From assembly GCA_949841365.1 (NCBI GenBank), contig CATKZI010000001.1, forward strand, positions 248,001 through 312,000: 64,000 bases of DNA, written 5' to 3'. Both the position numbers and the translations under genes were made by a program. This DNA comes from an uncultured Candidatus Melainabacteria bacterium (GTDB lineage: Bacteria; Cyanobacteriota; Vampirovibrionia; Gastranaerophilales; Gastranaerophilaceae). Positions 8,156 to 49,929 of the stretch are shown here, piece by piece. Within the stretch, counting starts at the first letter, position 1. Each line of letters starts with the position of its first letter. The notes beneath the pieces were generated by a model that saw nothing but the letters and a program-made list of their open reading frames with translations, was not told the DNA's origin and did no database searches.

Positions 8156-8647
8156 TTATTTTCCCCTTAATTTATACCACTTAATTTTTGAACGAATAAA
8201 ACTTCCAACCTCGCCTTGAGCAACCCAAGAATAAGGCGGAATAAAGATTATATCAATTTTTCCGGCACTGGAGGTTTTAGGATTTTTTATCCCAAATTCA
8301 TAATGAGTCATTATTGTTTGCGGGGTAATTTCTATTTTATATTTTCCTGCAAGCTGTGCGCAAAGCTCCATTGTACTTTCAAATTGTTTTTTAAGTATAG
8401 GATAACTTCCGATACAATTTCGGTTCTTAAACCCTGCCATAGCACAAATAGCCACACCAATGCTTCCGGTATTTCCGCCGCCTGTGTGTGCGGCATATTT
8501 TCCAACCTTACAAACCTCGTTATCCTCAGGTTTAAATTTTCCGTTATGAACAACTCCGTCTTTATCTACTAGAAAATGATAATGCTCTTTTTCATAATCT
8601 GTAGGATAATACCCTCCCGCTGTCCAATGAATTACGATACGTTTCAT
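8156..8647 (-). CDS. N-acetylmuramoyl-L-alanine amidase (endolysin)
   Basis: Cuts the amide bond between muramic acid and L-alanine in peptidoglycan to release phage or allow entry. The 163-residue protein is a single amidase_2 domain: MKRIVIHWTAGG holds the first zinc His, HYHFLVDKDGVVHNGKF and AAHTGGGNTGSIGVAICAM follow in order, and the C-terminal MTHYEFG supplies the late His. Length is that of T7-lysozyme-like enzymes. There is no signal peptide or cell-wall-binding domain. Its start lies 56 bp inside the upstream HTH gene, with RBS AGGAATATC. Confidence 0.85.
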   Translation of the reverse strand: MKRIVIHWTAGGYYPTDYEKEHYHFLVDKDGVVHNGKFKPEDNEVCKVGKYAAHTGGGNTGSIGVAICAMAGFKNRNCIGSYPILKKQFESTMELCAQLAGKYKIEITPQTIMTHYEFGIKNPKTSSAGKIDIIFIPPYSWVAQGEVGSFIRSKIKWYKLRGK

Positions 8648-9531: not shown

Positions 9532-11619
9532 TTATTTTATTTTTGCTTCAAGAGCCTTCAATCTGGCATCTAAAGCCTTATTTTGCTCTTTTAACATTTT
9601 ATTTTCTTTTTCTAACGCCGTAACTCTTGCATCAAGTTCTTTTATCGCATTGATTACAGCATAGAACATATCTTCCATACGAATAGTTAAGAAGCCGTCA
9701 GCACCTTTTTTGACTGCGTTCGGGAATACTTTTTGCAAATCCTGTGCCATAACACCAACGCGCGGAGTTTTCTTTTCATCTTTTTTGAAAGTGTAATTAA
9801 AGATTTTTAATTGACGAAGTTTTGCAAGCCCGTCAGTGTTTTCTTTACCGACATATTTCAAACGACGGTCGGAATATGTATTATACCACCCTTGTTCAGT
9901 AGAATTTATATCTGTAGGATATCCCCTCATATTATCATCGCCGCCTTTATTATCACCTTGTCGTAATACAACTAAGCCACCTCTACTATTTGCAGGACGT
10001 AAAACAGTTGCACCTTCTGAAGAATTCAAAAATACATGCTTTCCTACAACTAATTTTCCGGGAATATAAACAGTAGAATCTGCTGTTCCAAGGAATACTA
10101 TATTAGCAGAATTTGTTCCAATTGTCTGACCGGAAGAAGGTCCGGAACCTGCACCGATACAGGTTTTATTACTTCCGGATACATAATAGCAAGCACTTTT
10201 TCCAATAGCAGTATTATTTGAACCTGACCCATTGCTAAATAATGCCCATTTACCAATAGCAGTATTATTTTTACCTGTTGTATTCATATCAAGTGTAAGA
10301 TAACCGACTGCAGTATTAGCTTCACCTGTTGTGCTTCTATACAAAGCTTTATAACCGACTGCGGTATTCATATTACCTGTTGTATTCATATCAAGTGTAA
10401 GATAACCGACTGCAGTATTAGCGTCACCTGTTGTGCTTCTATACAAAGCTTTATAACCGACTGCGGTATTCATATTACCTGTTGTATTATATCCGGAAGA
10501 ATACATACCAACAGCTGTATTATATGTACCGGTTGTATTTTCTAATAATGATTCAGAACCTATAGCTGTATTACATCCGCCAGTTGTATTATTTGATAAT
10601 GTATTTGAACCAATAGCAATTAAACCTACATCATTAGCTTTACTTTTATAACCAATAGCTATACCTTCTTTAGTAGAAGCTGAAGCTTCAGAACCGATTG
10701 CTACGGAATTCTCTCCTTCTCCTGTGACACCTGCTCCTATAGCAATAGCATTATTAGCACTCCCCGATGCTCCTGAACCTATAACAACAAGATTACTCTT
10801 ATCGGATACTGCATTATTATTGGCTTCATGGCCTATGATTACGTTGTTGCTCCCTGTGGTATTGCCACTTCCGGCTCTTGTACCCAAAACGGTATTGTTA
10901 TTACCTGTTGTATTGCCTGACAATGAGGATACACCAACTGCAACATTTTGACCACCTGTTGTATTAGAAGCCAATGCACCCCAACCGATAGCTTCACTCC
11001 AGTGACCGAGAGTATTTGCACTCAAAGCATTCACACCTAAAGCGACATTATAATGACCGCTTGGTGCATTATGTTGATCTACATGAGTCATTATATTAGA
11101 ACCAATAGCTACACTGCCAAAACCTCCGTCTACATTATGACCTATAGTTATAGCTTGAATATTTTCTGTGCCAAGATTTAAACCTTCACTATTTATACGT
11201 AAATGTCCCAGAACATTATCACCGTTCTTAAATAAGAGCAAATTATCAAAATCACTATTATTAATTACCAATTTAGCATTATCGGCAGCCGCACGCTGGG
11301 TTTGACCAATATGTGCCATTTGCAAATTACCGTTGCCAAAATACGCATCCAGATTGCGACCGCCACCCTGCTGAACCCATTTCCAAGGTGAGGTTTGAAT
11401 ATTTTGATCGGCTTTCATCTTGGTAGTCATAGCTGGGGCTAAACAGGCTAGTACGATACTCATGATGAGCAAGACTACCATCATTTCAGCTAGAGTGAAA
11501 CCATCGTTAAAATTTTTCCAAAACCCAATGTGACGGGTCAAGCGGCTACGCTTGCTACGAGATGCCCCCCCCCCGAAGCTCTGTAACCATTGTGTATTAA
11601 TAGTTTTCATACGTGTCAT
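9532..11619 (-). CDS. Prepilin-like protein with beta-roll repeats and S74 chaperone
   Basis: A 695-residue surface protein with three parts. Residues 1-70 are a long type IV prepilin leader plus N-helix; DGFTLAEMMVVLLIMSIVLA is the prepilin peptidase site and hydrophobic helix. Residues about 100-520 hold many short repeats of the type NTTGxxNTAVGYxAL, as in YadA-like heads and other beta-roll adhesins. The C-terminus from Ser583 (SDRRLK) is a peptidase_S74/intramolecular chaperone domain, followed by a coiled coil (about 660-695). In phage tailspikes this domain trimerises the fibre and then cuts itself off before the Ser of S-D-x-R. A trimeric, pilus-associated adhesin is a reasonable inference. 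The leader codons contain a 10-G tract, here in frame. RBS: GGGAGTTGAAAAATG. Confidence 0.8.
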   Translation of the reverse strand: MTRMKTINTQWLQSFGGGASRSKRSRLTRHIGFWKNFNDGFTLAEMMVVLLIMSIVLACLAPAMTTKMKADQNIQTSPWKWVQQGGGRNLDAYFGNGNLQMAHIGQTQRAAADNAKLVINNSDFDNLLLFKNGDNVLGHLRINSEGLNLGTENIQAITIGHNVDGGFGSVAIGSNIMTHVDQHNAPSGHYNVALGVNALSANTLGHWSEAIGWGALASNTTGGQNVAVGVSSLSGNTTGNNNTVLGTRAGSGNTTGSNNVIIGHEANNNAVSDKSNLVVIGSGASGSANNAIAIGAGVTGEGENSVAIGSEASASTKEGIAIGYKSKANDVGLIAIGSNTLSNNTTGGCNTAIGSESLLENTTGTYNTAVGMYSSGYNTTGNMNTAVGYKALYRSTTGDANTAVGYLTLDMNTTGNMNTAVGYKALYRSTTGEANTAVGYLTLDMNTTGKNNTAIGKWALFSNGSGSNNTAIGKSACYYVSGSNKTCIGAGSGPSSGQTIGTNSANIVFLGTADSTVYIPGKLVVGKHVFLNSSEGATVLRPANSRGGLVVLRQGDNKGGDDNMRGYPTDINSTEQGWYNTYSDRRLKYVGKENTDGLAKLRQLKIFNYTFKKDEKKTPRVGVMAQDLQKVFPNAVKKGADGFLTIRMEDMFYAVINAIKELDARVTALEKENKMLKEQNKALDARLKALEAKIK
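10277..10480 (-). repeat. 102-bp tandem duplication in adhesin repeats
   Basis: Two adjacent 102-bp units (10277-10378 and 10379-10480) are almost identical and differ at about one base (GCTTCACC versus GCGTCACC). Each encodes 34 residues beginning NTTGNMNTAVGYKALYRSTT. The near-identity implies recent duplication, and copy number may vary between strains. Confidence 0.85.
11565..11574 (-). repeat. 10-nt homopolymer tract in prepilin leader
   Basis: Ten consecutive C on the plus strand, G on the coding strand, between TTC and CAT. It encodes Gly-Gly-Gly plus the first base of Ala (FGGGASRS) about 15 codons after the start of the prepilin/S74 gene. Ten bases keep the frame; 9 or 11 would shift it before the pilin signal. 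Confidence 0.9.
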
Positions 11620-15044: not shown

Positions 15045-15956
15045 TCACAAAGTTTCCACAAGAGCCTTTGCGATTTTTAATGCTTCGTTAAAAACGTATT
15101 CATTGCGCAAAAAGTCCTCGCGCTCAATGTATTTGCTCACAATTTTGCGTGCATAAGTTCCGATTGCAATGCCGTTATAATTTATTCCGCACATTTTGGC
15201 AAGTTCGGCGGTTTTGGAATTTGTACCGCCAGACAGCATTATATAAACAGGTAATTTTGCATTCTGAACAATTTCCGCTGTCGCAACAGCCTGCAAAGTT
15301 GTTTTATAATCATCACTTCCACCGCTCATCGGATAACCGTCAGCCTGAACTATTGTAGAATATGGTTTGCGGTTTTTAATCATCTGTTTTATCTGCTCAA
15401 TCATTTTTTCTTCCGATAACCGTCCGCGGGCAGTACAAATACTGAGCATGCCGTCATAAACAGAGTTTATATAATCCCATTTTTCAACCCAATCGCCGTC
15501 CATAGCATGAAGTTCAATACAATCAATGCCTTCTTTGATAAGTGGCGGCAAAACCTCACTCAAATCTTTGTTTTCAGAAACAAACGAAATCGCACCATGA
15601 GTGCAAACTGAATAACATTTACCACAGCCGATGCAGCGCGCTTGCTTTACTTTGCAGTGTTTTATCGTGCGTTGCGGGCAAACTTCTTCACACTTATGGC
15701 ATCCTGCACATTTTTCGTAATTAATTTGCGCTTTACGAATGTGCGGGTCGCCTTTAATCCCGACACTTACGCACAAATACCCCTCGCGTCCCTGCAGTCC
15801 TCGTTTTGCAGCTTCAACAATTTCAGGTTTTGCAGAAAGGTCAAAAAATTTACATCCCGCTTGAGAATACAATGCAACAAGTTTTTCTACTTCTTGAGCG
15901 TCCTCGTTTCCCGCTCCGCAGACAAGTTTAAAACATTTACCTTCATCCAAAAGCAT
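15045..15956 (-). CDS. LdpA-like iron-sulfur protein
   Basis: Resembles cyanobacterial LdpA, a redox-sensing Fe-S protein that tunes circadian period in Synechococcus. The 303-residue protein starts FKLVCGAGNEDAQEVEKLVA with a TIM-barrel-like lead-in, then has two ferredoxin-type clusters: Cys83, 86, 89, 93 (CAGCHKCEEVC) and Cys108, 111, 114, 118 (CIGCGKCYSVC). The C-terminal part (IVQADGYPMSGGSDDYKTT and YIMLSGGTNSKTAELAK) matches the LdpA C-terminal domain pattern from memory. No kai or photosynthesis gene is seen here. It may act with the downstream aldolase-like protein. Start codon overlaps the upstream stop (TAATG). Confidence 0.7.
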   Translation of the reverse strand: MLLDEGKCFKLVCGAGNEDAQEVEKLVALYSQAGCKFFDLSAKPEIVEAAKRGLQGREGYLCVSVGIKGDPHIRKAQINYEKCAGCHKCEEVCPQRTIKHCKVKQARCIGCGKCYSVCTHGAISFVSENKDLSEVLPPLIKEGIDCIELHAMDGDWVEKWDYINSVYDGMLSICTARGRLSEEKMIEQIKQMIKNRKPYSTIVQADGYPMSGGSDDYKTTLQAVATAEIVQNAKLPVYIMLSGGTNSKTAELAKMCGINYNGIAIGTYARKIVSKYIEREDFLRNEYVFNEALKIAKALVETL

Positions 15957-23425: not shown

Positions 23426-24334
23426 ATGAATAAACAAGAACTTTTAGACCTTTATAATATGGAACTTGATGAACTTTTAAAAATTTCATCAAAATATGTA
23501 AAAAACGAAATAGAATTTTGCTCGCTTATCAATGCACGCAACGGAAAATGTTCACAAAACTGCAAATACTGTGCACAAAGCTCACATTATTGCACAAACA
23601 TTGAAAGCTACCCTCTGGTATCTGTAGATGAAGTAAAAAAAGTTGCACTGGAAGCAAAATCACACAAAGCATCAAGATTTGCAATCGTAACCTCGGGCAG
23701 AACTCCTGATGAAGGCAGAGATTTTCAAATTGAACTTGATATGATTAAGGAAATCAACAAAATTGAAGGGTTAAAATCCTGCGCATCAATCGGAATTTTA
23801 AACGAGGAGCAGGCAAAACAGCTTGCTGATGCCGGTTTAAAAAGGTTTCATCACAATATAAACACTTCAAAATCATATTATCCTGAAGTTTGCACAACTC
23901 ACAGCTGGGATGACAGATTAAATACTTGTAAACTCGTAAAAAAATATGGAATGGAACTTTGCTGCGGTGTAATTCTCGGAATGGGTGAAAGTATTGAACA
24001 ACGTGTAGAAATGGCTCTTGAGCTTGCAGAAATTCAACCTGATTCAATACCGATTAATATTTTGATGCCGATTCCCGAAACTCCGTTTGAAAACTATTTA
24101 GATAAAATTGACGAAGAAAATGTTTTGAGAACTCTTGCTGTTTTCAAAATTGCAAATCCAAAATCCGTACTTCGTTTTTGCGGCGGCAGAATGAGATTAT
24201 CCGAAGAAAACCAGAAAAAAGCATTAAATACATGCGTTGAAGGGATTATGGTCGGCAATTATCTGACAACTGTCGGAAAAGCTCCGGAAGAAGATATTAA
24301 AAACGTCACAGAACTTGGAAAAACTATTATCTGA
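23426..24334 (+). CDS. bioB: Biotin synthase
   Basis: Radical SAM enzyme that inserts sulfur into dethiobiotin. The 302-residue protein has the SAM cluster motif CSQNCKYCAQSSHY (Cys-x3-Cys-x2-Cys), then SRFAIVTSGRTP, the substrate-binding FHHNINTSKSYYPEVCTTHS, and LRFCGGRMRLSEENQK near the end with the Arg that binds the [2Fe-2S] cluster. Length is slightly short but complete. Start ATG 23426 lacks a clear RBS. Its end overlaps convergent dnaN by 8 bp. The BioD-like gene is on the other side of dnaN. Confidence 0.95.
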   Translation: MNKQELLDLYNMELDELLKISSKYVKNEIEFCSLINARNGKCSQNCKYCAQSSHYCTNIESYPLVSVDEVKKVALEAKSHKASRFAIVTSGRTPDEGRDFQIELDMIKEINKIEGLKSCASIGILNEEQAKQLADAGLKRFHHNINTSKSYYPEVCTTHSWDDRLNTCKLVKKYGMELCCGVILGMGESIEQRVEMALELAEIQPDSIPINILMPIPETPFENYLDKIDEENVLRTLAVFKIANPKSVLRFCGGRMRLSEENQKKALNTCVEGIMVGNYLTTVGKAPEEDIKNVTELGKTII

Positions 24335-25448
24335 TTTGTACAGGCATAATCAAGCAAACGTAATCTTCTTCGTTATTCGGTTTGAACATTGTTGCTGAAA
24401 GCGGTGTGTTCAAGCCTACTTTAACTATGTCACTGTCAATGTTTTTCAATGCTTCCAATACAAATTTGTAGTTGAATGCAATCGTTAATTCTTCACCTGT
24501 ATAATCAATATCAAAATTTTCTTCAGATTTACCGGAATCCGGTGTATCTGCAGTAAGTTTCAAGTTATTATGACTGAATTCAAGTTTTACGATACTTGTT
24601 TTTTCGTTAACCATAATTGATACACGTTCTAAAGCTGAAATCATTTGAGAAACATTTACTAATGCTTCTTTCGGGCTTTCTTGCGGAATTAACTGGTTAT
24701 ATTTCGGGAATTGTCCTGATAATAATCTTGAAACAGTTAATGTTTTTTCTGATTTGATAATAATTTTAGCATCTTGTGTATAAATTTTTACTGCTTCTTC
24801 ATCAATGAACGAACTCATTTTAATAAATTCGTTCAATGTTTTAGACGGAATAATCAATTGTTTTGCATGATTGTCTTTATTATCAATAGTTTCGCGGACT
24901 CTTGCAAGTCTGTTTCCGTCAGTTGATGCAATTTCCATAACATTTGATGAAATATCGCAGACAATACCTGACAAAAGATTGCTTGTTTCGTAGCTAGCAG
25001 CCGCAAAACCTGCTTGTTTAACTGCTTTTACAAAAGGTCTGATTGAAATATCAAAACCTTCTTCTTCTTTAACCTGAACATTTGAAAATTCAGGCGGAAA
25101 TTCTGATGCTGAAATACCAATGATATCAAATTTTGAATTTTGGCAGGTTATATTTACTGTAGTTTCACCTTCGTTCATTTCAAAAGTGATTAATTTGTCG
25201 CCAAGTTTTGATACGATTTCGTTTAGGGTTTTTGAAGGTAATGTAATTTTACCCATCTCTTCCACCTGTGCATCAACTTCTGCAATGACAGTATAATCTA
25301 AATCTGTTGCAACAAGTTTGATTGTAGCTTTATCGATTGTTTCAATTAAAATATTCATCAAAACAGGCTGTAAAGCTTTGACAGATGTAGCTCTTTCAAC
25401 AATCTTAATTCCGTTATATAAATCTTCTTTTTTAACAACAAATTTCAT
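24327..25448 (-). CDS. dnaN: DNA polymerase III beta subunit (sliding clamp)
   Basis: Ring-shaped clamp that holds the replicative polymerase on DNA. The 373-residue protein has the three tandem clamp domains; MKFVVKKEDLYNGIKIVERA opens domain I, SGIVCDISSNVMEIASTDGN lies in domain II, and the C-terminal FNYKFVLEALKNIDSDIVKV to the end YVCLIMPVQIR matches the usual 'MPVRL' tail. RBS AAAAGGGAGTATAAAATG. It sits directly downstream of the probable replication origin. Confidence 0.97.
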   Translation of the reverse strand: MKFVVKKEDLYNGIKIVERATSVKALQPVLMNILIETIDKATIKLVATDLDYTVIAEVDAQVEEMGKITLPSKTLNEIVSKLGDKLITFEMNEGETTVNITCQNSKFDIIGISASEFPPEFSNVQVKEEEGFDISIRPFVKAVKQAGFAAASYETSNLLSGIVCDISSNVMEIASTDGNRLARVRETIDNKDNHAKQLIIPSKTLNEFIKMSSFIDEEAVKIYTQDAKIIIKSEKTLTVSRLLSGQFPKYNQLIPQESPKEALVNVSQMISALERVSIMVNEKTSIVKLEFSHNNLKLTADTPDSGKSEENFDIDYTGEELTIAFNYKFVLEALKNIDSDIVKVGLNTPLSATMFKPNNEEDYVCLIMPVQIR

Positions 25449-48965: not shown

Positions 48966-49808
48966 TTACCATGGGTAGTCAGATGTAATTTGCCATCCGT
49001 CTTGCATTATCAATGCACTGCAATAATAACCGCCATATCTGTCTGTGTTATTTTTATTACAACCTTTCAAACCTGTTAACCATTCTATTGTTTCACATTC
49101 GGGAGGGTAACACCATCTGTCATTATCGTTACCTGTCAAAATATTTCGTGATAATCCGCTTCCCGAAGGTTCAAGTCTATTATTTTTAGGGTTAATTACA
49201 AATGAGAAAACATCCTTACCAACTATGTTGTTTTTAATTTTATTATCTATATCTAAAAGTAAATAAAGTCTGTTTTCGTAAATTGAAACTTTAAATACAG
49301 TTCCATTTTTTATTCTATACGGTTTACCGCTGGTATAATAAGCAAAAAAACTTTCTTTTCCGCCCAAAGACCATATTGTACCATATTCATACTGCTTAAA
49401 AGGTTTACCTCCCCCATCAATATATGGTATAATATATTTTTCTGTAATTAATTGTGATTTTTCTGACAAATCAGAAATATTCTCAAATTCAGTAATCCAA
49501 TTTAAAGTATTACCATTATCATTAACAGAACGTGTAATTAAATTTGAAAATGTACTATATTCCGATTTTAATTTATTTACTGTAACATTTTTTTGATGAT
49601 TTGCAATCAAATTTGGTATTGTGATGGCTGCCACAACTCCGATAATACCTAAAGTAATTAAAACTTCCGCAAGTGTAAAGCCCATATGCTTGTTTGCTTC
49701 GCCTCGCGTTCTACGGCACCGGTCACAATCAAAACGAAAAGCGGATTGTCGGTAGAGGGTGTTGCTGTTTTGCTGTGCAAAACACAAAAACCCGTTTAGC
49801 GCCGACAA
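48966..49808 (-). CDS. Type IV prepilin-like protein (frame-shifted start)
   Basis: A pilin/pseudopilin with HMGFTLAEVLITLGIIGVVA (peptidase site G|F and N-helix) then AITIPNLIANHQKNVTVNKL. The C-terminal domain holds Cys residues near CYPPECETIEWLTGLKGC that may pair. The frame is open upstream of 49808 to a C10 tract. A promoter, RBS (AAAGGAGTTTGAGT) and ATG at 49909 precede that tract, but with ten C they run into a TAA; with eleven C they would join this frame. As sequenced, expression would need the TTG at 49808 or the inner ATG before GFTLAEV. The leader region is built from repeat R2. Confidence 0.75.
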   Translation of the reverse strand: MSALNGFLCFAQQNSNTLYRQSAFRFDCDRCRRTRGEANKHMGFTLAEVLITLGIIGVVAAITIPNLIANHQKNVTVNKLKSEYSTFSNLITRSVNDNGNTLNWITEFENISDLSEKSQLITEKYIIPYIDGGGKPFKQYEYGTIWSLGGKESFFAYYTSGKPYRIKNGTVFKVSIYENRLYLLLDIDNKIKNNIVGKDVFSFVINPKNNRLEPSGSGLSRNILTGNDNDRWCYPPECETIEWLTGLKGCNKNNTDRYGGYYCSALIMQDGWQITSDYPW

Positions 49809-49861
49809 CCAAGCTGCGTGGTTTCCGTTTATGATTGTTCGTCTGTCGCTACGCTCCTGCC
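49741..49861 (-). repeat. Structured dispersed repeat R2, copy b
   Basis: Minus strand: GCAGGAGCGTAGCGACAG, GCTTGGTTGTCGGCG, TAAACGGG, inner hairpin GTTTTGC-ACA-GCAAAAC, CCCTCTACCGACAATCCGCT. Outer arms and flanks match copy a (46698), while the inner hairpin differs in sequence but is conserved in shape. It encodes most of the prepilin leader. Confidence 0.6.
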
Positions 49862-49873
49862 TACGCTCGGCTC

Positions 49874-49883
49874 GGGGGGGGGG
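49874..49883 (-). repeat. 10-nt homopolymer tract in second prepilin gene
   Basis: Ten consecutive G on the plus strand (C on the coding strand) between CTC and CAG. It sits 26-35 bases into the frame that starts at ATG 49909. Ten C give frame OFF (stop after about 24 codons), eleven C give frame ON. Confidence 0.9.
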
Positions 49884-49929
49884 CAGTTCAATGATACAAA
49901 TTTTAACATACTCAAACTCCTTTGTTATT

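Follow-up and report, generated by a model that had tools for sequence, protein, structure and literature searches.

Poly-G tracts in the leaders of type IV prepilin-like genes are probably simple-sequence contingency switches that act through slippage phase variation on a prepilin repertoire whose default state would be OFF, with the gene for an S74-domain prepilin as an ON exception. This reading was preferred because it explains together the classes of genes that carry the tracts, their reading frames, the purifying selection acting on them and the differences in tract length. The window, i.e. the whole stretch of 64,000 nucleotides that was analyzed (G000:C1:248001-312000), belongs to a draft genome of 1.69 Mb (G000), whose analyzed sequence consists of the stretches around tracts and prepilin matches.

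The Two Tracts of the Window

With ten G residues, the gene at 9532-11619 contains an open frame of 695 amino acids whose product carries, in this order, a G10-bearing leader, the GFTLAE signal, YadA-head repeats and, at its C terminus, an S74 domain (Pfam N_methyl, YadA_head and Peptidase_S74; Table 1). The ATG occupies positions 11617-11619, G10 begins 45 nt (15 codons) downstream of it, and 62 nt separate the tract from GFTLAE, in agreement with the original prediction of a frame-preserving G10 run about 15 codons past the start and before the prepilin signal. Because the match to N_methyl (PF07963) reached 26.8 bits against a cut-off of 21.2, the product is, judging from its sequence, a type IV prepilin-like protein; its leader is unusually long. 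A change of tract length had been expected to silence this adhesin-like gene, and the frames bear this out, since nine G residues lead to a stop 8 codons past the tract and eleven to a stop 2 codons past it. A paralogue (L016:1589-3550) also encodes YadA-head repeats and an S74 domain and is also ON at G10; the two genes are among the minority of prepilins that are ON at this length. Both paralogues join a prepilin signal to YadA-head repeats, with an S74 chaperone domain at the C-terminal end. Among the unassigned ORFs near the S74 gene in the window, a phage head-tail connector match that is weak and below the cut-off (42-1760) and an amidase (8156-8647) suggest an adjoining prophage or remnant.

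The second tract (49874-49883) sits between the ATG (49907-49909) and the GFTLAE signal of another prepilin gene, in which an ATG directly 5' of GFTLAE constitutes a possible but weak internal start. The window contains six overlapping G8 matches, from both tracts, versus 0.17 in dinucleotide shuffles, which upholds the view that two such tracts are unlikely to have arisen by chance. The two prepilins had also been pictured as alike; the likeness holds for the G10/C10 run in the leader and does not extend to coding strand and state, the first gene being G-coding and ON and the second C-coding and OFF.

Table 1. Positions of the features discussed, numbered from the first nucleotide of the window.
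Feature	Position	Strand	Basis
Adhesin-like gene (prepilin, YadA-head, S74), ON with ten G	9532..11619	-	ORF and Pfam
Prepilin signal GFTLAE	11485..11502	-	Translation
3' flank of G10, CATCTCGTAGC, matching the motif C[A/G]-N-GC	11554..11564	-	Motif statistics
G10 tract, in the coding strand	11565..11574	-	Sequence
Leader, from the ATG up to the tract, with CTTC at its end	11575..11619	-	Start and ribosome-binding site
dnaN, landmark near the switch in GC skew and tract strand (probable origin region)	24327..25448	-	Tract listing, skew and gene match
Second prepilin gene, ATG 49907-49909; OFF as assembled, one more base needed	48966..49909	-	ORF and start
Second tract, a plus-strand G10 that the minus-strand prepilin carries as C10 in its coding strand	49874..49883	+	Sequence
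Flank of the second tract, G strand, CAGTTCAATGATAC	49884..49897	+	Sequence

Genome-wide Distribution of the Tracts

The genome contains 50 tracts of at least 8 G residues, and 39 of them lie between a start codon provided with a ribosome-binding site and the GFTLAE signal of prepilin genes. Random placement would yield about 0.6 such cases, according to our own estimate based on 63 prepilin starts, the number of N_methyl matches in the genome, and about 300 bp for each start in 1.69 Mb. The enrichment near prepilin starts that a scan for runs of at least 8 had been proposed to test is evident. Nor were there many runs unrelated to surface genes, as would have spoken against the prediction: the tracts outside prepilins are mostly found in surface-polysaccharide and similar genes, i.e. 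glycosyltransferase, TupA-type, acyltransferase, hexapeptide transferase, DUF2142 and PMP-repeat genes, to which relatives add epimerase and pyruvyltransferase genes, and a few tracts (for example L027 and L053) fit neither the prepilin nor the surface-gene pattern. Glycosyltransferases, acyltransferases and similar classes are common among phase-variable genes. The tracts display three properties of contingency loci, namely, at least 8 identical bases within a reading frame, a length that switches between full product and early stop, and a location mostly in surface genes.

Where a prepilin lacks a tract, its leader is in most cases short (MKKGFTLAE, for example) and the gene is in frame. Two others, L263 (G000:C5:19320) and L264 (C6:121198), contain a C tract that is interrupted, as in CCCCTCCCCC; the former is in frame, and the latter appears to be locked out of frame. 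Small palindromic GC-rich units (GCTACGCACGTAGC; GGTCAAGCGGCTACGCTTG, both orientations) were also observed within prepilin leaders (window 11533-11560, L257, L265, L271, L041 and L049), and in L257 and L265 they are accompanied by a duplicated FTLAE stretch and resemble in-frame insertions.

Reading Frame and Selection

At the assembled lengths, 34 of the 39 tract-bearing prepilins of the genome are OFF. Six species of the genus together provided 136 prepilins with well-supported starts and no N, of which 126 need a length of 11 (or 8 or 14) to be in frame (p = 6e-48 against one third, a value that treats as independent genes some of which are related copies). At length 10, 115 prepilins of these species are one base short, none is one base over, and 6 are ON. 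The distances from start to tract and from tract to signal are each found in any of the three phases and offset one another, whether the gene is G-coding or C-coding, and for this reason the relation between frame and length looks selected and not simply inherited. That the genes are ON at 11 rather than at 9 may be favored because longer tracts revert more readily. In contrast to the prepilins, most tract-bearing polysaccharide enzymes are ON at G10.

Pairs of prepilins in which both copies are OFF (19 pairs, two species) showed a median dN/dS of 0.14 and never a value of 1 or more, although the comparison is rough, since many dS values are above 1. With a dN/dS of about 0.14 in such pairs, the OFF prepilins are not pseudogenes and are evidently expressed at times. 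Translation from an internal start behind the tract was considered as a way around the OFF frame and discarded, since no usable start codon is present there in 105 of 124 OFF genes.

These results also bear on a reading of the tracts as chance, low-complexity coding or an artefact of assembly. The assemblies are drafts, and G runs are hard to sequence, so that their recorded lengths can be wrong (PMC9187656), but read errors cannot yield the enrichment at prepilin starts, the tuning of the frame, the dN/dS values, the pattern in several species or the order of strands along contigs. The tests of frame and selection already disprove the simple form of this explanation, and overall we regard it as scarcely credible.

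Tract Length and Flank

A length of exactly 10 was found in 163 of 188 tracts (87%) of the six species, a near-uniformity that is odd for free slippage. Genes ON at 10 and genes OFF at 10 both show this length, which points to a set-point at 10, and not only to selection for the OFF state. Lengths of 9, 11, 12 and 13 also occur, 11 being ON. The recent duplicates L190 (length 11, ON) and L191 (length 10, OFF) of one genome are almost identical in their flanks, and tract length also varies between some close orthologues, though most are 10. Loss of mismatch repair was rejected as a cause of unusual mutability, because G000 and almost all of its relatives possess MutS. Insertion of a mobile unit was likewise rejected as the origin of the tracts in this clade, since in the one orthologous set found the site of the L019 gene measures 10 nt, free of indels, in G000, G028 and G011 (GGGGGGGGGG, GAGATAGGGG and GGGGGAGGGG, respectively); two of the orthologues carry a broken tract that is still ten bases long.

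The tracts are embedded in the motif TC-G10-C[A/G]-N5-9-GC. On the G strand, a C (mostly TC) precedes the tract, C and then A or G follow it, and AGC or GC is located about 7-12 bases past it. The motif was found in G-coding prepilins, in C-coding prepilins and in unrelated genes. In the latter (n = 22), C is the next base in 22 of 22 tracts, and GC is present at +7 to +12 in 16 of 22, whereas the background has a mean of 3.6 and a maximum of 9. The motif goes along with the length, since 10 was observed in 164 of 178 tracts with the motif versus 13 of 26 tracts devoid of it (p = 7e-7). Many G-coding prepilins have the stop codon of their OFF frame within the flank; as the reason for the flank, however, such a stop was rejected, because it leaves the C-coding and unrelated genes unexplained. 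In the literature searched (open-licence papers only), no description of the flank rule was found.

Strand and Replication

The G strand of the tracts is constant on each contig of G000, except for one switch along C1, which is located between the two tracts of the window and coincides with dnaN and with the minimum of the cumulative GC skew. Considering dnaN and the skew, we infer that the switch point is the replication origin; a search for the DnaA-box pattern gave no clear cluster. A single strand switch within a contig was found among the first 100 tracts listed for G026, and a similar constancy, with few exceptions, was observed in G031 and G025. When GC skew was regressed on coding strand, the G strand gave a positive intercept in six of six species (0.012 to 0.068), and therefore the G run lies on the leading strand irrespective of the direction of the gene. 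The same regression gave no positive G-strand intercept in the sister genera G033 and G034, and in G033, unlike the six species, the strand of the tracts has no replication component. A by-product of gene orientation was discounted as the source of the strand pattern, since the G strand has a coding fraction of about 0.5. A leading-strand rule for tracts was not found described in the literature searched (open-licence papers only).

The main rival to slippage phase variation is a bypass at the RNA level, according to which the DNA would stay at G10 while a fraction of ribosomes that shift by -1, or of transcripts with an extra base, would provide a steady low expression of all prepilins. The 115 genes one base short at length 10, with none one over, the nearly constant tract length and the purifying selection on OFF genes would agree with such a bypass. 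However, no common slippery RNA, as expected for programmed -1 frameshifting or transcriptional slippage, was found among the 136 prepilins, whose mRNA reads G10 in 87 cases and C10 in 49 (six species; 36% C-coding). Moreover, the strand of the tracts goes with replication, several genes that are ON at 10 have nevertheless retained the tract, and lengths other than 10 exist, including the ON length of 11. Taking both sides together, an RNA-level bypass seems unlikely.

The strict leading-strand orientation and the presence of a DNA-level motif in unrelated genes could also suit a different explanation, in which tract and flank would be foremost a polar DNA signal promoting recombination between prepilin genes and the effect on the frame would be secondary. 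Known polar motifs of the chromosome, such as Chi and KOPS, are biased to the leading strand, frequent, and independent of gene class and reading frame. The tract motif shares the leading-strand bias with them and differs in being tied to one gene class and to the reading frame and in its low copy number, with only about 50 copies in 1.69 Mb, nearly all within genes. Since, in addition, the frame is tuned to tract length in 126 of 136 prepilins and the unrelated genes bearing the motif have no recombination partner, we consider a recombination signal improbable, more so than a bypass at the RNA level.

Relatives and Known Systems

Almost every genome sampled from the genus has tracts of at least 9 G residues, with counts from 0 to 176; two further genera of the family have 35 and 13, and elsewhere in the order such tracts are nearly absent. 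Almost no G tracts occur in G010, G012, G021, G023, G027 and G029, species of the same genus. G033, of a sister genus, and G006, of the same genus, resemble the species with the motif in having poly-G in prepilin leaders and differ from them in that tract lengths range from 9 to 15 and the motif is mostly missing. One closer relative, from the colon of a water deer, was identified through ClpB at 68% identity. An LdpA_C domain protein of the window (15045-15956), a cyanobacterial-type gene, hints at the lineage, tentatively a non-photosynthetic one within the cyanobacteria (Vampirovibrionia). G000 gave no rRNA match, and none of 58 genomes contained the cyanobacterial 16S primer pattern, perhaps because the rRNA genes are missing from the assemblies. 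A literature search on such lineages combined with phase variation or prepilins retrieved nothing relevant (open-licence papers only).

In Campylobacter, a PhasomeIt survey of poly-G/C tracts placed C on the coding strand in 5% and reported a length of 9 in 53% and of 10 in 26% (PMC6321876). Both systems have many tracts of at least 8 G, an AT-rich genome, surface genes and frame-dependent ON/OFF states, but here 36% of the prepilin tracts are C-coding, 87% of tracts are exactly 10 long, the orientation is bound to replication, and a flank motif is present. A measured switch of sortase-dependent pili by G-tract slippage has been described for two pilus loci of Bifidobacterium breve (PMC9187656). 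That organism and the present one are gut bacteria with a G tract early in the pilin gene and a common OFF length, which slippage turns ON in B. breve. In contrast with B. breve, the present case concerns putative switches in about 40 type IV prepilin-like genes, together with strand and flank rules.

Proposed Mechanism and Significance

In the proposed slippage phase variation, slippage at the G10 located between start codon and prepilin signal would shift the reading frame. G10 would be the resting length and G11 an occasional one, and the gain of a single base would switch on a few of the about 40 prepilins at a time, giving rise to cells with different pilus or adhesin sets. The S74 prepilins and the surface enzymes would behave in the reverse manner, being ON at G10 and turned OFF by the gain of a base.

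The orientation and the flank might act, although this part is weaker, at the DNA level during replication, when the G run would sit in the lagging-strand template, and might determine both why the tracts are ten long and in which direction they slip. An effect linked to replication is the simplest reading of the strand and flank rules, because the two coding orientations have no protein or RNA sequence in common. Only tentatively, and with more doubt than confidence, we propose that slippage is directed, such that a replication-linked recognition of the motif would keep the tract at ten and mostly add one base, and the prepilins that are ON at eleven would be read out a few at a time.

If the proposed switching is true, the uncultured bacteria of this genus would possess a large pilin repertoire that is OFF by default, with switches standardized in length, frame, strand and flank. 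The constant replication strand would offer a rare opportunity to learn from a natural system how repeat slippage depends on fork polarity and on sequence context, for which the sister genus with its ordinary variable tracts would provide a built-in comparison.
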